Part shown: piece by piece, positions 48,913 to 64,000 of the stretch
Layout: every line of letters starts with the position of its first letter
Numbering within the stretch: position 1 is the first letter of the stretch
NCBI RefSeq assembly: GCF_900637665.1
Contig: NZ_LR134386.1
Location: 2,844,501-2,908,500 of the forward strand
From: Chryseobacterium nakagawai
GTDB lineage: Bacteria; Bacteroidota; Bacteroidia; Flavobacteriales; Weeksellaceae
Direction: 5' to 3'
DNA length: 64,000 bases
Position numbers and translations under genes: made by a program
Notes under the pieces: model-generated
What the model was told of the DNA's origin: nothing
Database searches by the model: none
Seen by the model: the letters and a program-made list of their open reading frames with translations, nothing else

Positions 48913-49041
48913 TGGAAAAAATACGTCGTGTTCTGTCGTTGTGATGTGATAGCTTTGGATAAGATCGTGTAAGATCATGAAAGTGTAATGAAATTCGATA
49001 ATTCATTACAAATATTTCATGTTAAATCACATGGATATGAT

Positions 49042-49069
49042 TTGTGCTAACGAAAAAAAGTTAAATTTG
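49042..49069 (+). promoter_or_regulatory. Promoter of the secreted Rhs locus
   Basis: TTG at 49042-49044, 17 bases, TAAATTTG at 49062-49069, a full consensus match. It is 46 bases before the ATG at 49115 and lies after the longer possible start at 49019, which supports the shorter protein. It is the only strong promoter seen in the 49-64 kb block. Confidence 0.7.
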
Positions 49070-49114
49070 TTCGAATTTAAAAACCTAATCATTAAACTCA
49101 AAAACAACACGGGA

Positions 49115-50731
49115 ATGAAAAAAATTTATCTCGGTGCATGTACTGTATGCACGGTTCTGGGTATGTCTGCTCAGGAAGTACTCTGGCAGAAAGACATCCA
49201 ATCCACTACCCAAGATTTTCTAAGTCAGGTGACTACGACCATCGATCAACAGTATCTTATTACAGGCAGCTCTATACAGAGCGACAAATTCCAACAAGGC
49301 AATAAACAGAACAACGGCTATGATTTCCATCTGGTGAAGCTGAACCAACAGGGAGAGCAGGCCTGGGAAAAGTATTTTTCAGGGCAAAATCACGACTATT
49401 TATCTGCAACAGTAAGCACTCAGGATGGCGGATTTCTCTTAGCCGGAACTTCGTATTCAGGAAAAGGACTCGATAAGAAAGATGATTCCAAAGGTGGTTC
49501 CGATATATGGCTCATCCGAATCAATGAATTCGGGGATGAATTATGGCAGAAAACATTGGGCACTTCTTCTGATGAGGAAGCTAAATCTGTTATTCAAACG
49601 ACAGACTTGGGCTTTTTTGTCGCCGGAAATGTTCAAAACTCATCAAAGGGCTATGGTTCCAAAGATGTTTGGATAACCAGACTCGACAAAGAGGGAAAAG
49701 AACTTTCCCAATTAATATTAGGCGGAAAAGGTCTAGATGAAGTGGAAAAAATGATTCCAACCAAAGACGGCGGGGCATTATTGGGTATTTATTCAAGAAG
49801 TTCCGAGGTTAAGGATTCTGGGATAAGAAATACTGAAGTAAAATCTTCAGATGAAAGATTAGTGAGTTCAACAGCCATAAGCCAGATGCCAAAAGCCAGC
49901 AGCAACTTCGGTGAAGGGGATTACTGGATCATCAAACTGGATAAAAATGGAAAAGTAGAGTGGGAAAAGAACTTTGGAGGTAAGGGAGACGACCATATCA
50001 GAACCCTGGCTTTAATTGCAAACGGATTTATCATCGGTGGAGAATCCCGATCAGAACGATCAGGAAACAAAACAGTAGGCACCCAAGAAGGAACAGACCT
50101 TTGGCTGATTGCCCTTAATGAAAGAGGCGAGGAGCAGTGGCAAAAGTCCTACAATTTCAAAAATCGTGATATTCTGATGGGAATGAGTGTGATTCATTCC
50201 GCAGATGACAACTCTTCAAAAGGAATTTTACTTGGAGGTTACACTCAAGCCGAAGGAAGAATACAAAAAGATGATGAGACCTTCTGGATGTTATATTTAG
50301 ATGGCAACGGAAATGAACAGTGGAGAAAACATATAACAGGAGAATCCCGACAAAAAGAGGAAAGACTTTCAGATTTAAAGCTGAATAGAGATGGTTCTAT
50401 TGTGTTAGCGGGAACCAGTGCCAAAGAATTAGGGAAAGAAAACTGGAAGATCGTAAAGCTTGGCGACAAGCAGGTAAGTGATCTGATTGCCAAATATGAA
50501 ATGAAGATCTACCCGAATCCGGTATCAGACTATGCCTACGTAGAAATCGGTTTTGATTTTAAAGAAGCAGATATTATGCTGTATGATATGAGTGGAAGAC
50601 AGCTTCAGAATTTCAAAACCAAGAACAGAGTGACTAAGATCAATACCCAGGCTTTGGTACAAGGCGCTTATTTGGTAACTATAAAAACTGATAATAATAA
50701 AACAGCGAATGCAAAGCTGATTAAGAAATAA
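49115..50731 (+). CDS. Secreted beta-propeller-like protein with T9SS sorting domain
   Basis: Protein of 538 residues from the ATG at 49115 (MKKIYLGACTVCTVLGMSAQ, a good Sec signal peptide); an in-frame ATG at 49019 would place 32 non-signal residues ahead. The body has about six or seven repeats of the kind DGGFLLAGTSYSGKG ... GSDIWLIRINEFGDELWQK, typical of blade-like repeats. The last about 75 residues (KIYPNPVSDYAYVEI ... GAYLVTIKT) form a type A T9SS sorting domain, so it should be exported to the surface. It stands five bases before the first SpvB-like gene, so probably is first in a toxin operon. Confidence 0.87.
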   Translation: MKKIYLGACTVCTVLGMSAQEVLWQKDIQSTTQDFLSQVTTTIDQQYLITGSSIQSDKFQQGNKQNNGYDFHLVKLNQQGEQAWEKYFSGQNHDYLSATVSTQDGGFLLAGTSYSGKGLDKKDDSKGGSDIWLIRINEFGDELWQKTLGTSSDEEAKSVIQTTDLGFFVAGNVQNSSKGYGSKDVWITRLDKEGKELSQLILGGKGLDEVEKMIPTKDGGALLGIYSRSSEVKDSGIRNTEVKSSDERLVSSTAISQMPKASSNFGEGDYWIIKLDKNGKVEWEKNFGGKGDDHIRTLALIANGFIIGGESRSERSGNKTVGTQEGTDLWLIALNERGEEQWQKSYNFKNRDILMGMSVIHSADDNSSKGILLGGYTQAEGRIQKDDETFWMLYLDGNGNEQWRKHITGESRQKEERLSDLKLNRDGSIVLAGTSAKELGKENWKIVKLGDKQVSDLIAKYEMKIYPNPVSDYAYVEIGFDFKEADIMLYDMSGRQLQNFKTKNRVTKINTQALVQGAYLVTIKTDNNKTANAKLIKK

Positions 50732-50886
50732 AACAGATGAAAAGAAAAATTATAAATTTTATATTATTATTTTGTTTTGGCTGGACGTTTTCTCAATTAT
50801 CAATAGGAAATGATAAGGAAACCCAACATACTAATATTGTTCCTTTTCCTACAACAGCAAATGCCTACAGTCTTGATAAGGTAGGG

Positions 50887-50896
50887 AAATTAAATT
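50887..50896 (+). repeat. AAATT tandem duplication causing the frameshift
   Basis: Two AAATT units in direct contact; a single copy would leave the reading frame of the SpvB-like gene whole. Confidence 0.8.
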
Positions 50897-53580
50897 GCCC
50901 ATGGATATGTTTAGAGGGAGAGCTAACATATCTATTCCTTTTTATACCATCAGTGTAGACGGAATTAATATTCCTATAGGATTATCATATAATACAGGAG
51001 GAATAAAACTTAATGAAGTTGCAAGTGCAGTTGGTTTAGGGTGGAGTCTCTCCATTCCTGGAAGTATTTCCAAAAATATAATGGGAAAGGATGATGATAA
51101 TTATTCTATACGGTTTAAAAATTTTAATGAATCTTCACAGTATCTAAATAGTATTATAGATTATAGTACAAATGATCCCAGAATATCTACTATAGAACAA
51201 TTATATAATGGTTCTTCATATGATACAATGCCGGATATATTTCATTATAACTTACCTACAATTAATGGTGGATTTATAGTTAATAATAATGCCGGATATA
51301 CCATTCCGCATGTAGATATAAAAATAAATAAAGTTAATACTGATCTTTTTAAAATAATAGATGAGCAGGGTAATCAGTTTTGGATTTCAGGTAAGAATTT
51401 TATAAATGGAGGAACTCCAGGGGTAGCACCGTATGTTAATTCATACGGAATAGACAGTCTTCAAACTGCTCAAGGAAAAATGATAAAATTTTATTATGCA
51501 AAAAATCAATCTTATATTGAAAAAACAGTTAATGAAAATGCATATATCAATTTAACAACACAAACAGGAGGCTCTTATAATCCTAATGGATTGTCAAAAT
51601 ATGATATTACACGGTCAAGAATTGATTATGCAGAAAAATTACTTACTAAAATTGTATTCCCTGAAGGAGAGATTATTTTCGAATATTCTGACGACCTAGA
51701 ATTAGCCATTGAAAATAACGATAAGTATAGAAAAGATATTGGTACTACTATTGGCACTTCAACAATAAAAAATGGGTTGGCTCTTAGAAGAATAAAAGTA
51801 ATGAATAAAACCTCTGAAACTACAAAAGATTTTATTCTCAATTATTCATATTTCAATCCTCAGGCCTCTTCAGATATTCCTCAGGATTATCGTCTGAAAT
51901 TAAATAGTGTTTATGATAATTTACAGAAATCGTTTTATCATTTTACATATGATGAAAGTATTCCGCTACCAAGAAGATCGACAGCAAATGATGATTACTG
52001 GGGATATATTAACAGAATTGGGAATTTAAATGATGATCATAATATCCCACGAGAAACTTTTAATCCTTTAGTCAAAATATACCAAAATGGAAGAGATCGA
52101 GAAGTAAATACTCTTTATTCACAATTGGGTATTCTTAAAAAAATAACTTATCCTACTGGCGGATATAGAAATTTGTATTATGAAAATAATCAAACAAAAA
52201 CAAAGCAATATTCTACAACAATAAAAAGAGATGAATATGAAATTTTAGAAAATATTTATCAAGATGGAGTATATGGAGATAATGCTTCTGAAAAAACGTT
52301 TTCAGTCCCTTCCACTTTACTTAACAGTTTAATTGAACCAAAATTTGAATTTCAATTTGTTAACTGGTGTGATAATAATAATGACAATACAGGTACAATA
52401 CACCCTACCAGTTGTCTTGGATCTGCTAAAGTTATTACAAGTAATGGCAGCAATGTATATACATCTAATGGAAAACCATTTCTTAATGTACAATCAGCCA
52501 CAACACTTCCAATAACTTTAAAGCTGTATAGAGTTGATGAGTGCGGCTGTAATATTAATATGAATATCCTTCATGAGATACGTAATGAGAGTACAGAAAT
52601 AAAGAATATCGGGGGACTTAGAATATTAAAAGTAGAAGATTATGACGGAAAAAACATACAAAATATTTATAATTACCAATATAATGGAGGTGTTATCAAT
52701 CAACCTTTTGCATATGCCAAAACTGTATATAGGGAAGTCCCACACTCAGATGGGCATTCTGCTCCGGCTTATTTTCAGTTTTTAAAACTGAGTAATTCAT
52801 CATCTGCAAACAGTTCATATTCAAGTTCGGATTTAATCACTTATTCCACAGTCACTGAATATAATGGTAAAGGTGAAATTATTTATAATTTTTCTCAAAG
52901 TAATGAAAGCAAATCTGCTTCTGAAATAACAATATCCGATTATGACAGTTGGAAAAGTGGCTTATTACTTTCTCAATATTATAAGAAAAACAATGATACT
53001 TTGCGTAAAGAAATATATACTTATTCTTTCAAACCATTGAAGAACTCTCTTTCTGGTTACAGTCCTATTACTAATAAAGAAATAAGCTTTGCAATTAATT
53101 TAGATATTACAAAAATAAAAAAAGAACAAGGTGTATCCGGAAATTTTGTAGATGCTTTTAATGTTCAATATAAATATATTAATATCGAGTCAGGAAAAAT
53201 AGAAAATGATACTACAGAGGTTATAGATTATTTAAATGGTAAAAAAATAATTACTACCTCTAGAAATAATTATTATGATACAGATATCACTAAACCAATC
53301 AATCTCCAGAGCACAGAAAATATATTGCCAAGTGGAGAGAAAATAAAAACGTCCTATCAATATGCTTATGAGAAAGGGAATCAGCTTATGATAGACAAAA
53401 ATATGATTACCATTCCATTAGAAACAGAAACGAAACAAACTGCTAATGGATCCACAAAAACACTCTCAAAATCGGAAATCATTTATCCTAAGACTCTTCC
53501 TTCTTCTCAAACAGGGAATTTGGTACTTCCTACATCTGTTTTATCATATAATCTTGAGAATTCCTCTTCAGGATTAACAG

Positions 53581-54014
53581 AATTGAGCTATGATCAATAT
53601 GATTCCAAAGGGAATATTGTGCAGTATACTAACAGAGTGGGAGTATCAACAGTCATTATCTGGGGATATAACGGGACTCAGCCTATTGTCAAGATTGAAA
53701 ATGCAAAACTGGAAGGAATTGGACAATCATTCATAGACAATATTGTGAATGCTTCTAATCTGGATGCTGCCGCTGAAAGGAATAATGATGAAACCAATCT
53801 GCACAATGCCTTTAAGGACTTTAGGAATAATTTGTCCAGTTATCAGATCACAACCTACAGTTATGATCCATTAATTGGAGTAAGAAGTATTACCCCTCCC
53901 TCCGGAATCCGGGAAGTTTACCTTTATGATGCTGCCGGCAGGCTTAAAGAAGTCAGAGAGCATAATAATACCGGAAAACTATTAAAAGAATTCAATTACC
54001 ATTATAAAAACTAA
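53581..54014 (+). repeat. 434-base direct repeat, copy 1 (3' end of the broken SpvB-like gene)
   Basis: Aligns without indels at constant offset 3,269 with 56850-57283. Long stretches are the same (for example the GCTTCTAATCTGGATGCTGC block), far more alike than the rest of the two genes. It codes for the C-terminal YD-repeat part. Confidence 0.85.
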
Positions 54015-54019
54015 AATCG

Positions 54020-57000
54020 ATGAAGAAAATAATATTATTATTACTAATTGGGGCGCTTTGTAAAGCACAGCTTACAATTGGTGACGAACAAACCAAGCAG
54101 GTTGTTCCTTTACCAGCCAGCGCAGAGTCTTACAGCCTTTCCAAAGTGGAGGCTATACCTATGGATTACTTCAGAGGAAAAGCCAATATTAATATCCCAA
54201 TTTATACAATAAACGTTAACGGAATTAGCATTCCTATTTCTCTTGCGTATAATACAGGAGGAATCAAATTAAACGAGGTAGCGACTACGGTAGGATTAGG
54301 CTGGTCGTTGAGTATTCCCGGAACGATTTCTCATAATGTAGTAGGTCTCGATGATCTGGATGTCCCTTTTTTTAAGAAAAACATTTCAGAATATGGAGCT
54401 TATAATGGGATCATTACTGAATCTTATATGAACAATCAGATACGGGCTGATCTTGAAAGTATATACAGTGGTACTTACGATACCCAAAAAGATATTTTTG
54501 ATTACAACCTGCCTACTGCATCAGGTTCTTTCCTGCTGAAAGAGAATAATCAGACGTTCTTGATTCCCAATGATGATATTGTGATCACAAGAAATGATGG
54601 TAAATTTTATATAAAAGATACGCAGGGGACAGAATACTGGATGTCTCCAAGAAATTCGGTTATGCCCTGGAGTATAGGGGGACCTACAGTCTTGCATAAA
54701 ACATTATATAATCTAGATGAACTTAAAATTAATAACAAATCAGTTTTGTTTTATTATAATAAAACCCATGGTTATGGAGAAAGGAATATCAACCAGGTTG
54801 CCAATTTTAAACTAACCCCAAATTTAGGTGGAGGGTATGAACAACTGATTCGTCTTCCCAGATATGAAAAAACAGAGACCTCTACTTCTTTTTCAGAATC
54901 TCTGATCAGTAAAATAAGTTTTGATAATGGGGAAGTTAATTTTTTGTATTCCAATGATACTAATGCGGCATTTTCAGATGGTTCATCGTACAGAAAAGAC
55001 TTGAGCGGAGGGCAGGGAATTGCACTTCGTAGAATTATAGTAACCAATAAAGCTGGGGTTATTGTAAAAGATATTAGTCTTAATTATAGTTATTTTGAAA
55101 CGGATAATGCGAATAAAACCTATGAAGATTACAGGCTTAAACTCCTGGGTGTTCGTGATAATTTGCAAAACACGGAATATTCATTTGAGTACAATGAGAA
55201 GTATAAGCTTCCTAAACGCAGCAGTAGTAATGATGATTACTGGGGATATATTAATAGCATCCATAACAGAGAAATACCCAATATTCCGAATTTGGTTTAC
55301 GATTACGAAATTCCTTTAACAGAATTAAGTGCTGTTGCTAAAAGAGATAGGGAACCGAATGAAGAGTATGCTGTTTTGGGGGCGCTGGCATCTATAAAAT
55401 ATCCCACAGGAGCCAAGAAAAATTTTTACTATGAACTTCCCTACAATTCAGGAAAAAGATCTACAGGATATGCTTGGGATTATTTACCAATAGGGGGAAT
55501 GCAAACGGATCCATCGGAAGAAGATTTTTATGAAAAAAAGACTTTAACAATTACATCAGCACATATGCAGCAAATAATAAATCTGGGAATTAATGCAGAG
55601 CCTGAAAAACTTGAAGTAAACTTTAGTAATGCTTGTTTAAATGCCAGTAATCCGGGTGATAATCAAACGATAGCAGAAACCCAATGTACGGGAACTGCAA
55701 TATATTCCCCTCAACAGTTCTCTGAATGGCGCTCAAAAACCGTAGATTGGAATATATCACCTGGTAAAAATTTGGTATTGCAGTTGCAGAAAATAGGAAA
55801 ATGTACATGTGCGATTGCTGGTGCAATTCGATATAAATACCCAACTTATATTGATGAAACGAAAAAATATGGTAGCCCTCGTATCCGGAAAATAGAAGAT
55901 ATTGATGCCAATAATGTTTCAAACGTTTATGAGTATGCCTACGGAAAATATGAAAATGGAGTTTTTATTCCTGATTTTCAGTTGAAACAAAAATATAATT
56001 TTTCATCTATTATTAAAAGACAGGTAAAAGAATATTTTGAAGGTAAGGAGACTGGATATGCTTTTGAAAAATATTACCGTCTTCACAATTCCAGTCAGGG
56101 GAACACCAGCTATGGAAGCTCGGATGTCATTAATTATCCTTCTGTAGTAGAAATTACAGATAAAGGAAAAATTATAAGAGAATATGAAATTTCCAGCAGT
56201 TCAAATTATGTATACAATAAATGGAAAGGCGGGAGGTTAAAGAAAGAAATTTATCTGAATAAGGCCAACGATACCTTAAAAGTAATTACAAACAGATATC
56301 AGCTAAATACCTTAAAAAACAGTTTGTCAGAATTTACCACCAGTGTTCCCCAAATAGCTGCCTTTTCTACAGATTTTGACATTACAAGAGGAACCGCCCT
56401 TGTATTAGATGTTCCGGTGGAGATCTATGCTGTTGAGAATAAAATGTATATGATTGAATCTGCAAAAATAGAACATGTGGAAACTACAACAAAGGAGTTT
56501 TTTGGAAATAAATCTATTCTAACAAAGACATTAAATGCCTATTGGGATACTGATGTTAACAAACCTTTCAATGTGAAAAGTACTGAAAATATTTTACCAT
56601 CCGGGGAGAATATAAAAACAGAATATCAATATGCTCACCAAGCCGGAAATCAGCTGTTAATTGATAGAAATATGATTGCTATTCCCTTAGAAACAGCGAC
56701 CACCAAAACCGCTAATGGAGTTAGCAATATAGTATCAAAAAGCAAAACAATTTTCCCTACGAGCCTTCCAATTTCTCAAACAGGATTTTTGGTACTCCCG
56801 ACCTCAATATTGTCTTACGATCTCCAGAATCCTAGTCAGGGATCAACAGAATTGAGTTATGATAAGTATGATTCTAAAGGGAATATTGTGCAGTATACTA
56901 ACAGAGCGGGAGTATCAACAGTCATTATCTGGGGGTACAACCAAACTCAGCCTATTGCCAAGATTGACAATACAAAACTGGAAGGAATTGGGCAACCTTT

Positions 57001-57283
57001 TATAGATAGCATTGTGAATGCTTCTAATCTGGATGCTGCCGCTGAAAGGAATAATGATGAAACCAATCTGCACAATGCCTTTAAGAACTTTAGAGATAAC
57101 TTGTCAGCTTATCAGATTACAACCTACAGTTATGATCCATTAATTGGAGTAAGAAGCATTACCCCTCCCTCCGGAATCCGAGAAGTTTACCTTTATGATG
57201 CTGCCGGCAGGCTTAAAGAAGTCAGAGAGCACAACAATACTGGAAAGCTATTAAAAGAATTCAATTACCATTACAAAAACTAA
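54020..57283 (+). CDS. Secreted SpvB/TcB-like protein with C-terminal YD repeats
   Basis: Intact paralog of the preceding gene, 1,087 residues. Signal peptide ([16 protein letters not shown]). Residues about 45-110 contain [33 protein letters not shown], close in shape to the SpvB N-terminus (YNSGxGNGxFGLGWSLSLP) of ABC toxin B components. The middle is tyrosine- and asparagine-rich beta sequence with a few Cys. The end ([37 protein letters not shown]) is a YD-type repeat that could dock to the Rhs protein. No sorting domain. Gap of 4 bases to the DUF6443 Rhs gene, so probably a two-part shell as in TcB/TcC; that is inference. Confidence 0.78.
56850..57283 (+). repeat. 434-base direct repeat, copy 2 (3' end of the intact SpvB-like gene)
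   Basis: Partner of 53581-54014, no indels; see that entry. Confidence 0.85.
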
Positions 57284-57287
57284 GACG

Positions 57288-60200
57288 ATGAAAAAACTTA
57301 TAATTCCCATAGGCATGCTGTTGATAAGCTATTCAGTCCATGCCCAGCTTACCCCGGGAGAAAACTATATCCAATCCAGGACCTATCTTGATTATAATGG
57401 AACGAACCCTTCAAAAACCTCAGAAACCGTCCAGTATTTTGATGGTTTGGGAAGACCTAAGCAGGTAGTGAATGTAAAAGCCTCTCCCTTGGGAAAAGAT
57501 GTGGTTACTCACATTGAATATGACCAGTTCGGAAGACAGGTGAAAGACTATCTTCCTGTACCTCAATCAGGAACTTTGAATGGAGGGATTATTCCCAATC
57601 CTTTATCCAATGCCAGCAGTTCTCCTTATGGCTCAGAAAAGATCTATTCTGAGAAAATATTGGAAAACTCTCCTTTGAACAGGCTTCAGCAGCAGATCCA
57701 GGTGGGGAATGACTGGAGTACAAAGCCTGTGAAGTTTGGGTATGAAACCAATATAGGCAATGAAGTGTACCAGCATATTACCACCACCACCTGGGAAAAC
57801 GGGGCCACTAAAAGTGGGATAAGTTTATCTCCGGCAGTTTTATATGCACCTGGTACCTTGTATAAAAATACGGTGACAGATGAAGATGGAAACCCAACGG
57901 TAGAGTTCAAAAACGGAAAAGGGCAAACCTTGCTGGTAAGAAAGCTGATGGGCTCCACCGAGCAGGCAGATACTTACTATGTGTATAACGAATACGATCA
58001 GCTGGCCTTTGTGATTCCTCCCAATGCGGTTCAAAAACCTATTAGCGAAGCTCTGCTCAATGATCTCTGTTACCAGTACCGTTACGACGGAAGAGGAAGA
58101 CTGGTAGAAAAGAAACTTCCCGGAAAGGGCTGGGAATATATGGTGTATGATAAGGCTGACCGATTAGTTTTTACCCAGGATGCTAATATGAGTCTAACGA
58201 ATAAATGGTTATTTACAAAATACGATGCATTAGGGAGAGTAATCATAACAGGTATTGTGAGTGGGAGCAGCAGAGCTTATATGCAGACAATGATTGGAGA
58301 TACAGTGATGACTGAGAATGGATCTGCCACCGGCTTTACAAAAAACGGAATGCAGATATTTTATACTAACACCAATTTCCCTTATCTTGAAACAGTCTTT
58401 TCGGTTAACTATTATGATACTTATCCGGGGTATAACTTTAATCCTACATTTCCTTCCACCATCCAGGAAGTAGAAACATTAAAAGAAACGGTATCCCCGG
58501 AAGGAAAAAGCACCAAAGGACTTGCTGTAATGAGGCTGGTAAAAAATATTGAAGATGACAACTGGACCAAGAATTATACGTATTATGACACCAAAGGACG
58601 AGTGATAGGCACCCATTCCATCAATCATTTGGGAGGCTATACCAAAACAGAATCCAAGCTGGATTTTGCAGGACTAGCCCAAACGGTGATCACCAAACAT
58701 AAGAGGTTAGAAACCGATACAGAAAGAGTCATCACCGAAACCTTTGACTATGACCACCAGAACAGACTTTTGGTTCACAAACATCAGGTAGATGCTAATC
58801 CTGTGGAAATCCTTACCCAGAATACGTACAATGAACTTTCGCAGCTGGAATCTAAAAAAGTGGGTGGAATTGCTGCAGGATCTGCGCTTCAGCAGATAGA
58901 TTATAAGTACAATATCCGTGGTTGGATGACTAAGATCAATGATCCTTTGAATCTAAATGGAAGATTGTTTGGCTATGAAATAAAATATCATAATCCTATA
59001 TCTTCAGCAAAATCACCCGGGAAGTTTAACGGAAATATTGCAGAGATCGACTGGAAGAATTCTTCAGAAGACATTCTGAAAAGATACAACTATGAATATG
59101 ATCCTTTGAACCGTTTAAAAAATGGATTCTACTCAGAACCTAATGCCACTAATCCTGGCAATGGTAATTTTGATGAATATCTTACTTATGACCTGAATGG
59201 AAACATTAATACCCTGCAACGAAAAGCCACTCCAATATCAGGTCAAACTCCTGCATTGGTAGATAACCTTGAATATAAATATACCGGAAACCGCCTGAAT
59301 CAGGTGATAGAATCTGCAATGAACGATACCGGGTATGAAGGCGGAAATAATATAATAGATTATGATGTGAATGGAAATATGATTAATATGAAAGATAAGG
59401 GAATCAACACTATTGGTTATAATCATCTCAGCCTTCCCAATACATTTGCAATGAGCCATCCGGATCCTATTATTGTTGGTCAGCAAACAAGTGCTAATCT
59501 TGGATATTTATACCGTGCAGATGGAACCAAACTAAGAAAAACGTATTCAACCCGGCCTCCGAGAGGATCGGTTAGTACCAGTATGACCGATTATCTGGAT
59601 GGCTTCCAATACTCATACCGGGAAGGTGGGGGACTCTGTCTAACCTGTCGTACCGAGTCTGCTTTTGAAGAACAGGCTTACGGAAATCTCGGAAAAACCT
59701 TTCCTAATATAGGAGATCCACCAGCATGGAAGCTGGATTTTGTGCCCACTTCAGAAGGCTTTTACAGTTTCACAGAAAACCGTTATATTTACCAGTATAA
59801 AGATCACTTAGGCAACACCCGAGTAAGTTTTGCCAAAGACAGCGCAGGTGTTCTGGAAATTACCGATACTAACAACTATTATCCTTTTGGTCTCAACCAT
59901 ATCTCAGGAATGTTTGGGACTTCTAATTTTGGAGGGTTATATAGTTATAAGTACAATGGAAAGGAGCTGCAAGAAACAGGTATGTATGATTATGGGGCGA
60001 GGATGTATATGCCGGATCTCGGAAGATGGGGTGTAGTGGATCCGTTGGCGGAGAAAATGAGAAGATATTCTCCTTATAACTATGCTTTTAACAATCCGCT
60101 AAGATTTGTTGATCCGGATGGGAAACAAGCAAAAGATGTTATTATTACAGGAGACAAGCAAAAGGAAGCCTTTAAACAACTACAACAATCAACATCTTTA

Positions 60201-60731
60201 GAATTAAAAATGGATGATAAGGGTAAAGTTACTGCCTCTGGCACTGCAAAAACAAATGCAGATAAAAAATTATTATCTGCTACAACTGACTCTAATGTAA
60301 TAGTAAATGTAAATGCAACGTCATCTAATTATAGCAATGTTGGTCGTTGGTATATAGGTGGTGCATATGGAGGGAGTGAAATAAAATCAGATGGGAAAAC
60401 ATATACAAAACAAACCATAAATCCTGAACAAACTAAAAAAATAGATAATTTTTATAACGTTCAAAAAGGAGTTTCTGTTCTTCATGAAGTTCTAGAATCT
60501 TATATTGGAGGTGTTAATTCTCCCGGCATAGGTGCTCCTACATTAGATCAAACAACTCCTGAATTTATAGCATATAAAAATGCACACGATAGTACAGAAA
60601 AAATAGATCCAAGACATATTGCTTCTGATGTATCTCAAGATCCTACCGATGGGAAATTATATATAAATAAACCTGATCCTAAAAGCCCACAGAGCTACAT
60701 AGAATTACTTATTAACGATTTATCTAAATAA
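57288..60731 (+). CDS. DUF6443/Rhs secreted polymorphic toxin with variable C-terminal tip
   Basis: Protein of 1,147 residues. Signal peptide ([17 protein letters not shown]); DUF6443-type N-terminus ([13 protein letters not shown] ... [14 protein letters not shown]); many YD/RHS repeats ([49 protein letters not shown]); Rhs core about 830-944 ([58 protein letters not shown]), ending at DPDG. The last about 203 residues are the tip: [11 protein letters not shown]..., with [11 protein letters not shown] and AYKNAHD that look like a zinc-metallopeptidase-type HExxE...AH pattern. The tip enzyme is only a guess. The following lipoprotein gene is the expected immunity gene. Confidence 0.88.
59778..60122 (+). 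repeat. Rhs core segment copied in the two downstream orphan cassettes
   Basis: This segment, up to the DPDG codons, aligns with no indels to 61304-61648 (offset 1,526), and its last part, 59949-60122, to 63023-63196 (offset 3,074). Just past DPDG all three sequences stop matching. These are the homology arms of the toxin-swap model. Confidence 0.88.
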
Positions 60732-60734
60732 AAA

Positions 60735-61163
60735 ATGAAAAATTTAATTTGCATTATTTTTATTATTTTTATGGGTTGTGTCTCTACAAAAAATAAAATA
60801 AGTTATAATACTTTTCATTATAAAGTTGTAGGGATACAAGAGTATCAGTATGCTTTTGCTTTTAAAGTATTAAATGATAGAAAAGACACTTTATTAGTAA
60901 TATCATTAAAAGATAATTTTTATGATAAATACAATCATAAAAAGCCGAAGTTAAAATTGGTTGGAAAAATTACCATAGATAAATCCTATGATTTTATTCT
61001 ATCTGAAAAAAAACCAACTGTATCAACAATGGAACAACTAGGAGCTTTTATTATTATTGAAAATGATACTGTATGTAAAGCTAAATCGTATAAAGAACTG
61101 CCTTTAATATTTATTTCACATAATACAATAGGAAAATTTTATGATAGCTCCTCAGTAGAATAA
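60735..61163 (+). CDS. Lipoprotein immunity candidate for the Rhs tip
   Basis: Protein of 142 residues with signal and lipobox FMGC (Cys15), so exported and anchored in a membrane facing the periplasm; that location suits protection from a toxin acting in the envelope. Very AT-rich (Lys, Asn, Ile, Tyr), unlike the conserved genes before it, a usual sign of swapped cassettes. It starts three bases after the Rhs toxin gene. No known family recognised. Confidence 0.7.
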   Translation: MKNLICIIFIIFMGCVSTKNKISYNTFHYKVVGIQEYQYAFAFKVLNDRKDTLLVISLKDNFYDKYNHKKPKLKLVGKITIDKSYDFILSEKKPTVSTMEQLGAFIIIENDTVCKAKSYKELPLIFISHNTIGKFYDSSSVE

Positions 61164-61303
61164 ATTTAATAATACTTCAAAAAGATGTTAGTTTTATTTA
61201 TTAGTAAATAACCCCTTGCTGACGCTAGCTTGTAGCTCGTGTCTCATAAATAAAAAAAAGGCTATTGTATTTACAATGGTCTTTTTTCCTTTTAGTGTAA
61301 TGA
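61164..61303 (+). other. Cassette junction 1
   Basis: 140 bases between the first immunity gene and the first orphan core. It includes ACCCCTTGCTGACGCTAGC near 61211 with the small palindrome AGCTtgtAGCT (61227-61237), more GC-rich than its surroundings, which may be a dispersed short repeat, and the terminator listed next. Confidence 0.45.
61257..61285 (+). terminator. Terminator between Rhs toxin operon and orphan cassette 1
   Basis: AAAGGCTATTGT (61257-61268) pairs with ACAATGGTCTTT (61273-61284) with two G:U pairs, then TTTT. It should stop read-through into the orphan cassette. Confidence 0.75.
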
Positions 61304-61648
61304 AACCATTATATTTACCAGTATAAAGATCACTTAGGAAATACGAGGGTGAGTTTTGCAAAAGACAGCGCAGGTGCTCTAGAAGTTACGGATACCAATA
61401 ACTATTATCCTTTTGGTCTCAACCATATCTCAGGAATGTTTGGAACTTCTAATTTTGGAGGGTTATATAGTTACAAGTACAACGGAAAGGAGCTCCAGGA
61501 GACTGGGATGTATGATTATGGGGCGAGATTTTATATGCCAGATTTAGGAAGATGGGGTGTGGTGGATCCGTTGGCGGAAAAGATGACTCGTCATAGTCCT
61601 TATAATTATGCTTTTAATAATCCAATCAGATTTATTGATCCGGATGGA
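61304..61648 (+). repeat. Copied Rhs core segment in orphan cassette 1
   Basis: 345 bases matching 59778-60122 without gaps. In-frame stops just upstream (TAA TGA at about 61298-61303) show it is a cut-off copy and not a full Rhs gene. Confidence 0.88.
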
Positions 61649-62341
61649 ATGCAAGCAGAAGATAAGATCAAGATTTTTAATAATGGTAAAATAGAACGTA
61701 CTGCCGATACAAATACATACGATACTGTTACGAATGAAGATGAATCTAAATCAATACAAATTGCACGGACTAATGTTACAGAAAAGAATCCAACAGGAGA
61801 ATCTCAGATAGGAGAGTTGAAGAATGAAAAAGTTTCAATTGCAGGGGTAGGTCCTGATTTTGGTTATTTTCAAATTAATAATTATGATACAGCAACACAA
61901 GTATTTGAGTTTATAGCTGATAATACTTCTGTAGAATTTGGACAAGATAAATTTGATTTTTCAGATGGGTTTTCTACAAATGTGATAAGTACAAATTACA
62001 ATGAAACTAAACATGCAAGTGCTGCCGATGTTCTAGCGAATAATAATCTGAGTATGGGGTCTACGACAATGCACATAACCAAAGATGGTGTATATTCCGA
62101 AGCTGTTCATTCACATCCCGGATTTGAATACAATCCCTCAGGATTCAGTGAAGGAAATTGGAATAAGGGAAATCCAACATTTGGTATAGCGTACAAGGAT
62201 GCTGGGGATAAAGGACGTTCAAAAAGTAATAGCGCAATATCTAAATATGTATATAGTACATGGCTGAAAAATAATGGAGCAAATGGAGGGTATGTAAAAT
62301 ATGATTACAATGCAGCAGTCTATACAGGTAAGAAAAAATAA
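61349..62341 (+). CDS. Orphan Rhs core-tip cassette 1 with JAB-like toxin domain
   Basis: 330 residues from a GTG inside the copied core; natural translation is doubtful because there is no promoter, no good start and no signal peptide. Residues 1-100 are the Rhs core ending in FIDPDG. The tip (about 101-330) carries MHITKDGVYSEAVHSHPGFEYN with H-S-H-P and a following Ser, then Asp-rich end, as in JAB/MPN-type metal isopeptidases (the JAB-like toxin 1 group, named from memory). It is likely silent until recombined onto the full Rhs gene through the shared core. Next to it lies its immunity candidate. Confidence 0.75.
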   Translation: MSFAKDSAGALEVTDTNNYYPFGLNHISGMFGTSNFGGLYSYKYNGKELQETGMYDYGARFYMPDLGRWGVVDPLAEKMTRHSPYNYAFNNPIRFIDPDGMQAEDKIKIFNNGKIERTADTNTYDTVTNEDESKSIQIARTNVTEKNPTGESQIGELKNEKVSIAGVGPDFGYFQINNYDTATQVFEFIADNTSVEFGQDKFDFSDGFSTNVISTNYNETKHASAADVLANNNLSMGSTTMHITKDGVYSEAVHSHPGFEYNPSGFSEGNWNKGNPTFGIAYKDAGDKGRSKSNSAISKYVYSTWLKNNGANGGYVKYDYNAAVYTGKKK

Positions 62342-62357
62342 TTTAATTAGAAAATCA

Positions 62358-62912
62358 ATGAAAAAAATAATTTTAATAACTCTTATTTTCTTTTTTACTT
62401 TTAATAAAAGTGCTATTAGAAAACAAGATTTACATAATATTATTAAGGGATATATAGAATATATTTCTAAAAAAAGAAAGGTCAACCCTAAGAACGGGAT
62501 ATTGGTATTAGCTTTTCATGATGAAACAAAAGAGAAAGGTGAATATTCGGTAGATATTGCATTTTTTGATCCTAAAGTGATGAAAAACATGAAATATAAC
62601 CATGTTTATACATTTGAAGGATATAAGCTTATATTACCTGATAATGAATGCAAAGCAATACAGAAAATGTTTAAGAAAATTTCATATGAAAATTTTAATC
62701 AGGCTGAAATAGAAGTAGATTACGAAGTTGAAAGTTGGCATATTGTCTTTAATAAAATAGATGAGATCAATTTTTTATCACCTAGTGTAATCTCAGGATG
62801 TATGAAATCAATTTTAAAGAGTAAAAATTTAAAATTTTCAGATACATATAAAGATGTTTCATATTCCTCCCCTGATTGTTCAAAATTTACTCCAGCTAAA
62901 CAAAGTCCATGA
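62358..62912 (+). CDS. Immunity candidate of orphan cassette 1
   Basis: Protein of 184 residues from the ATG at 62358 (MKKIILITLIFFFTFN, a signal peptide or anchor); a longer frame from 62301 overlaps the toxin gene and lacks a plausible N-terminus. The mature part is basic, with LAFHDETKEKGEYSVDIAFFDP and WHIVFNKIDEINFLSPS. No family recognised. Starts 16 bases after the toxin stop. AT-rich like the other tip cargo. Confidence 0.68.
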   Translation: MKKIILITLIFFFTFNKSAIRKQDLHNIIKGYIEYISKKRKVNPKNGILVLAFHDETKEKGEYSVDIAFFDPKVMKNMKYNHVYTFEGYKLILPDNECKAIQKMFKKISYENFNQAEIEVDYEVESWHIVFNKIDEINFLSPSVISGCMKSILKSKNLKFSDTYKDVSYSSPDCSKFTPAKQSP

Positions 62913-62934
62913 CTTTGAGTTAATAATAAAACAA

Positions 62935-62963
62935 AACCCGCTCATTGAGTGGGTTCTTGTTTA
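62935..62963 (+). terminator. Terminator between orphan cassettes 1 and 2
   Basis: AACCCGCTC (62935-62943) pairs with GAGTGGGTT (62947-62955) with one G:U around ATT, then CTTGTTTAT; the T run is weak. Confidence 0.55.
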
Positions 62964-62998
62964 TCTAAAAGCCTGTTTAGTTTTAAAATTTTGGATAT

Positions 62999-63028
62999 AA
63001 GTACAAGTACAAGTACAAGTACAAGTAC
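62999..63028 (+). repeat. (AAGTAC)5 hexanucleotide repeat at the start of orphan cassette 2
   Basis: Five perfect AAGTAC units where the parent gene has one (59949-59954). Read in core frame they code for Lys-Tyr repeated. They mark the point where the cut-off core begins, with a stop codon in frame 15 bases before. Confidence 0.9.
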
Positions 63029-63196
63029 AACGGCAAGGAGCTGCAGGAGACGGGAATGTATGATTACGGAGCGAGATTCTACATGCCGGATCTGGGAAGA
63101 TGGGGTGTAGTAGATCCGTTGGCTGAAAAGATGACAAGGCATAGCCCGTATAATTATGCTTATAACAATCCGACTAGGTTTATTGATCCTGATGGT
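63023..63196 (+). repeat. Copied Rhs core segment in orphan cassette 2
   Basis: Matches 59949-60122 (offset 3,074) without gaps, shorter than the copy in cassette 1, and ends at the same DPDG codons. Confidence 0.88.
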
Positions 63197-63838
63197 AGAG
63201 CCCCTAAAAATGATATTACGGTTAATAATTCAGGCAAAGTTCAATATGTAAAACAAAATAATCAACCCAATAGATTTTTTAACATGAAAGGAAATGAACT
63301 TAAATTCAATGACCCAAAAGGTGTTGATAAGAAATTCTTAAATTCTGAATTTAAAAAAGGAGATAGGGTTTATTATGCTATAAGCTCAGGGCAAGTAGAT
63401 AAAGCTGTAAATAGTGTAGGGTTAAATGATGAAATAAAAAAAGCTAGAGGAGCAGTTGTAGCATTGCCAAGTAATGAAATGAAAGCGGCGGCTTATGGAA
63501 TTGCAAATGCAATGATTGCCTTTGAATCTCATAATGATGCTGATTTTACACATAGTTTTTTAACAAATCAAGTTGAAAGAGGAAAGAATGGTTTAACAGA
63601 AGATGGAGGAGTTTTTAGAACACACTATGTAGAAGATGAAGCATTCTTTAAATTTGAAGGGGCAAATGATGTTTACAATCTTTATGATGCAGGGAATTTT
63701 ATGTGGGGAAATTGGACAAAAGAAATTGGTTTAACAGATATAGAAGTTTCGACAGGTTCACAAGCAAATGAGTTGAGAAAAGGCAGCTTGGATTCTGGAG
63801 CAGATCAAAATGCAATAAAAAAAGGAAGGAAATATTAA
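63056..63838 (+). CDS. Orphan Rhs core-tip cassette 2, toxin-44-like tip
   Basis: 260 residues from the ATG at [14 protein letters not shown], inside the copied core. Core to about residue 47 (FIDPDGR), then a variable tip of about 213 residues. The end ([20 protein letters not shown] ... [28 protein letters not shown]) has the D-x-G-N-F-x-W/Y-G and D-S-x-A-D-Q-x-A-I pattern that I associate with the polymorphic toxin type 44 group. No promoter, signal or upstream Rhs part, so probably silent. A partner gene follows at once. Confidence 0.72.
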
Positions 63839-63839
63839 C

Positions 63840-64000
63840 ATGCTAAAAAAGATTCAATACCCTAAAAATTTAATACTGATATTTTTAGTATTTTCTTTGT
63901 TTTTCTATCTAATTAGAAATATTGGAGATGGAAGATCTTTTATTGATTTGATATTAAACTGGATTATTTTTATACCAGGAATAGTTACGTTTTTTATTTT
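63840..64000 (+). CDS. Immunity candidate of orphan cassette 2 (3' truncated by window)
   Basis: Starts with ATG at 63840, one base after the toxin stop, and runs out of the window after 53 codons. Two hydrophobic segments are visible (LILIFLVFSLFFYLI and LILNWIIFIPGIVTFF), so an inner-membrane protein, which hints that the matching toxin acts at or near the envelope. No family recognised. Confidence 0.6.
   Translation, partial: MLKKIQYPKNLILIFLVFSLFFYLIRNIGDGRSFIDLILNWIIFIPGIVTFFI

Follow-up and report, generated by a model that had tools for sequence, protein, structure and literature searches.

An Rhs locus of Chryseobacterium nakagawai read as an exported toxin unit backed by displaced spare tips

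Arrays in which a full rhs gene is followed by core fragments leading into unrelated tips were described in enterobacteria (Jackson et al. 2009, PMC2935791), with decoupled histories of cores and tips, for which homologous recombination was proposed. Orphan cdiA-CT/cdiI and rhs-CT modules carry their own immunity gene, mostly without translation start signals, and in one E. coli pair a conserved segment spans the VENN motif to the next VENN (Poole et al. 2011, PMC3150448). In passaged Salmonella cultures, an orphan rhs tip was found fused to the main rhs gene, being activated by recombination through the shared core (Koskiniemi et al. 2014, PMC3967940). Toxin cassettes were also reported across phyla (PMC3482391) and in bee gut bacteria (PMC8125069). 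The locus considered here lies in a 64,000-nt stretch (the window) of Chryseobacterium nakagawai (assembly GCF_900637665.1, contig NZ_LR134386.1, positions 2,844,501 to 2,908,500), whose genome is one contig of 5.6 Mb. It comprises a full-length Rhs gene, called the head, followed by two displaced core-tip cassettes, called orphans, each with a small putative immunity gene.

The plan of the locus is that of the enterobacterial arrays, but it belongs to another phylum, its Sec-exported DUF6443 Rhs protein is accompanied by SpvB-like partners and by a partner sorted by the type IX secretion system (T9SS), and orphan cores of the arrays surveyed below are often closer to a foreign head than to the local one. 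The boundary of core and tip is DPDG, in contrast to VENN in CdiA, and delivery differs; activation of orphan tips has experimental support in Salmonella, whereas it is inferred here. The first-pass annotation had cited displaced tips as known from proteobacteria, which is correct, but they are not confined to that group, as they occur in Ornithobacterium hominis (PMC6421346, PMC13183296) and in several phyla (PMC3482391). The O. hominis RHS arrays are alike in belonging to Flavobacteriia, and one of their tips is also found on another Rhs protein, in Bergeyella cardium. They differ in being described for one species and in having a large rhs, over 9 kb long, that is a single gene of the SpvB/TcdB type, and the accessible text of these papers mentions no T9SS partner. 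The mechanism considered here is that of the known orphan rhs/cdiA modules, and similar arrays are published for Ornithobacterium. The apparent novelty lies in the setting, an Rhs unit tied to a gene of a T9SS-sorted protein.

Core copies and probable tip replacement

Ungapped copies of the core were found at 59946-60144, 61472-61670 and 63020-63218, copies 2 and 3 being 81% and 79% identical to copy 1, with spacings of 1526 and 1548 nt (sum 3074). A longer pair (59777-60076 and 61303-61602) showed 87% identity, and all three copies matched TIGR03696 (Rhs_assc_core) above the cut-off. Every core passes the DPDG codons (60122 in the head) and then enters an unrelated tip followed by a small open reading frame (ORF). 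The three ungapped copies at offsets of 1,526 and 3,074, the DPDG boundary, the unrelated tips and their own small genes had been reported in the first-pass annotation and were all re-measured; the third core is present too but is short. Its start consists of a run of TACAAG units (62987-63032) encoding a YK repeat. The terminators noted earlier between the units correspond to two hairpin-like sites (Table 1), and 11 terminator-like hairpins were counted on both strands of 55500-64000 compared with 5.2 in shuffled sequences.

The survey was conducted with 59578-60731 as the query, which matched 93 of the 98 Chryseobacterium genomes searched, C. nakagawai included. Forty-six stretches from 41 genomes were picked among the query matches, together with 80 named loci picked by similarity to the head. 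Matches with a core alignment ending before column 114 and 3 of 285 cassettes lying at a contig edge were dropped, and deduplication left 282 cassettes, 115 heads and 167 orphans, under 84 genome labels (12 of them merged with other records on the basis of shared cassettes; a few more may represent one genome). The sample is non-random, as the loci were selected by likeness to the window core or Rhs protein, and it comprises one genome per species, so all comparisons between genomes are comparisons between species. Tip families were built from 247 of the 282 tips (tips that were cut or shorter than 100 aa being excluded), 266 of the 282 cores were compared and the starts of 136 of the 167 orphans were scored. 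Genomes and loci carry G and L labels. G063 (L051), 75% complete, with repeated frame breaks and maybe a poor assembly, was retained; 7 of the 8 cores of L051 lead into a similar reading of 18 residues and a stop. In L011, L038, L040 and L041, the cassettes have a common linker past DPDG before the tips diverge, and G082 has 81 Rhs_assc_core matches in a single genome.

At least one orphan, with a maximum of seven, followed 55 of the 115 heads within the stretch read. The lack of signal peptides in the orphans, claimed for the window, recurred throughout, as a crude rule identified a signal-like start in 2 of 167 orphans and 102 of 106 heads. The 247 tips fell into 117 families, 43 of them present in more than one genome; 28 of these 43 comprised a head in one genome and an orphan in another, 9 comprised only heads and 6 only orphans. 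Label shuffles gave 30.9 ± 2.6 mixed families; whether a tip is loaded or spare is therefore not tied to its family and is as free as chance would make it. All three tip families of the window mix heads and orphans across species, with 9 heads and 6 orphans for tip 1, 1 and 9 for tip 2 and 5 and 3 for tip 3 (own cassettes included). Together with near-identical Rhs bodies that end in different tips, this supports the earlier proposal of tip replacement through the core.

Such bodies, at least 90% identical, formed 19 pairs, 17 of them with tips of different families, although five cassettes from C. nakagawai (G000) and G007, variously combined, make up 10 of the 17, and one pair (L009/L027_12488H) falls into a single family under a looser clustering rule. 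In 150-nt bins covering 58872 to 59921, the window head (L009) and another head of the same genome (L013) were 97-100% identical. In 15-nt bins, the identity was 80-100% as far as 59956 and dropped to about 57-80% between 59957 and DPDG, beyond which the tips are unrelated; the two heads part at about 59957, inside the interval 59778-60122 in which the breakpoint had been predicted. Farther upstream, at 58122-58571, the window head is 73-88% identical to L013 and to L027_6087H of G007, with 91-97% in adjoining bins, which makes a mosaic patch in the Rhs body.

Exchange between species was supported by the tips as well. The tip of the own-genome head L010_5332H was 99% identical in DNA to its counterpart in G025, with a core at 82-87%. 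Orphans L027_14147o of G007 and L042_12956o of G010 shared about 97% identity from -75 to +1200 relative to DPDG, the next core beginning at +1190; the tip and immunity segment was about 97% identical and the adjoining core 79-87%. The changepoint fit of tract ends was unreliable where the sequence ends (right-hand values of about 1700-1900, zero identity beyond), and tract ends were therefore judged by eye. Judged in this way, the shared stretch stopped at or inside the next core in 6 of 12 profiled pairs, and in three of these six (G007/G010, G007/NZ_MAYF01 and G054/NZ_WXVU01) the identity also rose at or shortly before DPDG. Of the between-genome pairs, 21 had tips at least 78% identical; in nine of these the tip DNA was more than 3 points closer than the core. 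In seven of the eight between-genome pairs with tip DNA at least 90% identical, the core reached at most 90%.

Taken as a whole, the locus is probably an exported Rhs toxin unit that keeps displaced tips in store, the tip of the head being replaceable through recombination in the core, and the spare tips look like an exchangeable reserve, not junk. By homologous recombination in the core, a newly arrived cassette or a neighbouring one would take the place of the head tip. One crossover with an added cassette would shift the old tip one place down, and a crossover between the head core and the core of an orphan would remove the head tip and load the orphan in its stead. Orphan toxins would be silent, with their immunity genes either expressed or not, and the loaded protein would be exported by Sec and would reach the cell surface aided by the T9SS-sorted protein of the unit.

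Several observations weigh against this interpretation. No orphan was present within the stretch read in 60 of the 115 head arrays. In 12 of the 21 pairs, the tip led the core by 3 points at most, and one pair (L080/L129) had a core of 99% and a tip of 84%. The eight pairs with the closest tips comprised four head-head, four orphan-orphan and no head-orphan pairs (the best head-orphan pair reached 89% in tip DNA), which means that the most recent exchanges seen were between heads and between orphans. The nearest core lay in the same genome for 54 of 238 cores (1.5% in shuffles), and in only 28 of 142 orphans was the match to the own head equal to or better than that to the best foreign head; with core homogenisation within arrays this weak, frequent local recombination between heads and orphans is not shown. 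As the sample compares species only, no swap was caught as it happened. Genome-specific homogenisation of cores, hinted at by the arrays of G048 and G094, was rejected as a general rule on the nearest-core counts. A protein, P0001, identical to head residues 221-1147 has no bearing on swaps.

Origin and upkeep of the orphan cassettes

Two points account for 82 of the 136 scored orphan core starts. Site 1, defined as within -25 to +6 nt of the codon of the first Y in an 11-residue core stretch, was used by 46 orphans of 28 genomes, and site 2, near YKYNGKEL, by 36 orphans of 23 genomes, with the remaining 54 starts spread over about 1370 nt. A hairpin was present in the 90 nt 5' of the start in 31 of the 46 site-1 orphans (0.8 expected) and 3 of the 36 site-2 orphans. 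Orphan 2 of the window is of the site-1 type, and orphan 3 is of the site-2 type and among the three with a hairpin. The recurrent starts may derive in part from the common descent of a few junctions; independent recurrence is possible. The site-2 orphans of L029, L033, L060 and L064 (four genomes) are alike just 5' of the core, perhaps owing to another repeated element. Hairpins as dispersed genome-wide repeats were unsupported where tested. The type preceding the L010/L011 orphans occurred twice in the own genome at up to two mismatches, each time within those arrays. For the other hairpin type, 7 of 8 distinct sites in G048 lay inside the array stretch, G071 had sites on contigs C1, C6 and C28 besides those on the array contig, and in G094 the pattern matched two places outside the array and missed the array's own, slightly different hairpins.

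The recurrence of starts at two points and the confinement of nearly all G048 hairpins to the array stretch would suit cassettes that move as defined units, with a dedicated and possibly site-specific process recognising the start of the orphan core. We consider this very improbable, as different hairpin types occur at site 1, so that the recurrence may be partly a matter of common descent, and site 2 coincides with the beginning of the most conserved core segment, a place where homology by itself could set the breaks or end the alignment. The orphan pairs might instead act inside the cell as toxin-antitoxin modules, expressed from internal promoters and regulating growth, as reported for Salmonella rhs pairs (PMC7043789). 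A scan with one simple Bacteroidetes-type promoter pattern found a slight excess 5' of orphan frames (9/167, 4.0 in shuffles). However, 158 of the 167 orphans are without that pattern, and the putative immunity proteins 1-3 have, by eye, hydrophobic or lipoprotein-like starts, a feature more in keeping with a target in the envelope than with a cytoplasmic antitoxin, so such a role appears quite unlikely.

Orphans could also be kept mainly for their immunity genes, as protection against the toxins of relatives, with the spare tips as by-products. E. coli EC93 makes an orphan immunity protein and apparently not the orphan toxin (PMC3150448). Among 88 orphans with both genes matched, 13 had a tip ORF shorter than 150 aa, and nine of these decayed cassettes kept an unbroken immunity frame, in line with a continuing use of the immunity genes (the call of a broken frame also covers low coverage, and only these 13 short-ORF orphans were used). 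Protection alone, however, would not need the 128 of 164 uncut orphan tips of at least 150 aa, nor tips as constrained as those of heads. The median ratio of nonsynonymous to synonymous substitutions (dN/dS) of tips was 0.16 for orphan-orphan (18), 0.165 for mixed (22) and 0.17 for head-head pairs (15), the pairs being drawn between genomes at 60% identity or more and having members in common. Orphan tips thus do not drift freely, although part of the constraint may date from an earlier time as heads. The hairpins that often precede site-1 orphan cores also speak against upkeep for immunity, as does the lack of a promoter excess, with the one pattern scanned, 5' of orphan immunity genes (6/167, 4.6 in shuffles; for head immunity genes, 7/115 and 2.7). 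Upkeep mainly for immunity is accordingly a tenable but somewhat doubtful reading. The same constraint, with the caveat that part of it may predate the orphan state, and the free sharing of tip families between the two states argue against cassettes as neutral relics of former tip replacement. Relics would account for tip ORFs shorter than 150 aa in 36 of the 164 uncut orphans compared with 1 of 115 heads, and for their accumulation, in arrays with at least two orphans, in the last orphan (13/42, 12/91 for the others, p = 0.019), but we regard them as an unlikely explanation.

The T9SS-sorted partner and its proposed role in export

The first-pass annotation had the unit begin at the Rhs gene. 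The working unit is longer and begins with the gene of a T9SS-sorted, propeller-like protein (T9prop) and two SpvB-like genes (49019-57283), the designation SpvB-like being our own. The genes of 49019-61163 (T9SS-sorted protein, two SpvB-like proteins, Rhs head, immunity protein) are spaced by 3-5 nt. Propeller families matched T9prop only below the cut-off, and its signal-peptide start is probably at 49115. In the first SpvB-like partner, the start with the signal peptide is in a different frame from the remainder, owing to a frameshift or an assembly error.

Among 54 heads with at least 7.5 kb of upstream sequence, a T9prop homologue was found for 52. Its median distance upstream of the Rhs frame was 3.3 kb, which would accommodate one SpvB-like gene. 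A homologue of the second SpvB-like partner lay immediately 5' of 51 of the 54. The window unit has the SpvB-like partner twice, and the usual spacing fits one. The association was counted further in 16 genomes chosen for few contigs, with split matches merged by hand. Among the matches listed, T9prop was located within 13 kb and on the same strand for 53 of 55 heads of 900-1350 aa and near none of 19 Rhs frames longer than 1350 aa; one of the two remaining heads has a remnant of it and the other none in the stretch read. All 77 T9prop homologues of these genomes had an Rhs core downstream of them on the same strand (61 among the matches listed, and 16 of 16 in the remaining stretches).

SprA, the T9SS part searched for, was found in the own genome, and VipB/TssC (PF05943), the only part of the type VI secretion system searched for, was not matched there. 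Pfam gave just DUF6443 and RHS_repeat for the Rhs head, with no N-terminus of the PAAR/VgrG type, and neither Pfam nor NCBIfam identified a C-terminal T9SS sorting domain on it. Head residues at about 822-951, in the core region, matched solved chains of YenC2, TccC and other Rhs proteins, and no solved chain was matched by the SpvB-like partner gene. The T9SS-sorted protein may help Rhs across the outer membrane. A more far-reaching idea, which we put forward only tentatively and consider doubtful, is a distinct secretion-linked system in which a T9SS-sorted, propeller-like obligate adaptor would take the SpvB-Rhs shell to the surface, with tips supplied by silent cassettes, many of them having a terminator and a recurrent core start. 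A literature search, mostly of open-access papers, yielded none on DUF6443, and the titles and openings of abstracts on Rhs with T9SS and on T9SS with polymorphic toxins named no T9SS-sorted partner of Rhs. One likeness is to the TANFOR polymorphic toxins (PMC7073777), Bacteroidetes toxins with signal peptides encoded near proteins with a C-terminal domain (CTD), for which T9SS export was hypothesised; TANFOR proteins, however, are not Rhs, and their neighbours are of the SprB type, another family than T9prop.

Layout of the locus and its meaning

The features of the unit and its array are listed in Table 1. The immunity role of the small genes is putative and assigned by position. Tip 2 is the sole tip with a toxin domain above the cut-off. 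Relatives of tip 1 extend to proteins of Pedobacter and Chitinophaga (2 of 11 matches), and in an alignment of eight sequences residues H121, E122, E125 and H155 were invariant; going by this alignment, a structure model and a fold comparison, tip 1 may be a zinc-hydrolase-like toxin, YbeY being among the folds considered.

Table 1. Coordinates of the Rhs unit and its orphan cassettes in the window
Feature	Position	Strand	Remarks
T9SS-sorted protein, propeller-like (T9prop), opens the unit	49019..50731	+	PF18962 / TIGR04183 above cut-off
SpvB-like Rhs partner 1	50737..54014	+	
SpvB-like Rhs partner 2	54020..57283	+	RHS_repeat above cut-off
Full-length Rhs head: signal peptide, DUF6443, Rhs repeat, core	57288..60731	+	
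Core copy 1, site 1 to DPDG	59778..60122	+	repeat comparison
Tip 1	60123..60728	+	
Putative immunity gene 1, lipoprotein-like start	60735..61163	+	3 nt past tip 1
Terminator-like hairpin directly 5' of orphan core 2	61254..61287	+	
Orphan core 2, begins at site 1	61303..61648	+	
Orphan tip 2, JAB-like toxin 1	61649..62341	+	PF15659 above cut-off
Putative immunity gene 2, hydrophobic N-terminus	62358..62912	+	
Terminator-like hairpin 5' of orphan core 3	62935..62955	+	
Orphan core 3, begins at site 2 with TACAAG repeats	62987..63196 (about)	+	
Orphan tip 3	63197..63838	+	weak Ntox44 resemblance, below cut-off
Putative immunity gene 3, small, hydrophobic	63840..64094 (window stops at 64000)	+	

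The array had been expected to run past the window end with further cassettes. It does so by 94 bases, to the end of immunity gene 3, but no cassette follows; the array closes there and is succeeded on the opposite strand by M28 peptidase genes (the family being named by eye from the translations). In a genome-wide search, the next Rhs core beyond the array was found at 3080648, about 170 kb away, and the whole genome had 18 Rhs_assc_core matches, divided by open frame into 8 heads and 10 orphans. Rfam at the gathering threshold gave nothing in 50000-64000, PADLOC matched nothing at the locus and plasmid records contained no near match to it.

Tip-switching Rhs arrays, best studied in proteobacteria, are now seen in a genus in which 93 of 98 genomes match the core-and-tip query, and the many Chryseobacterium species available make the exchange traceable. 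The tight pairing with a T9SS-sorted protein gives a testable lead on the export of PAAR-less Rhs toxins in Bacteroidota.

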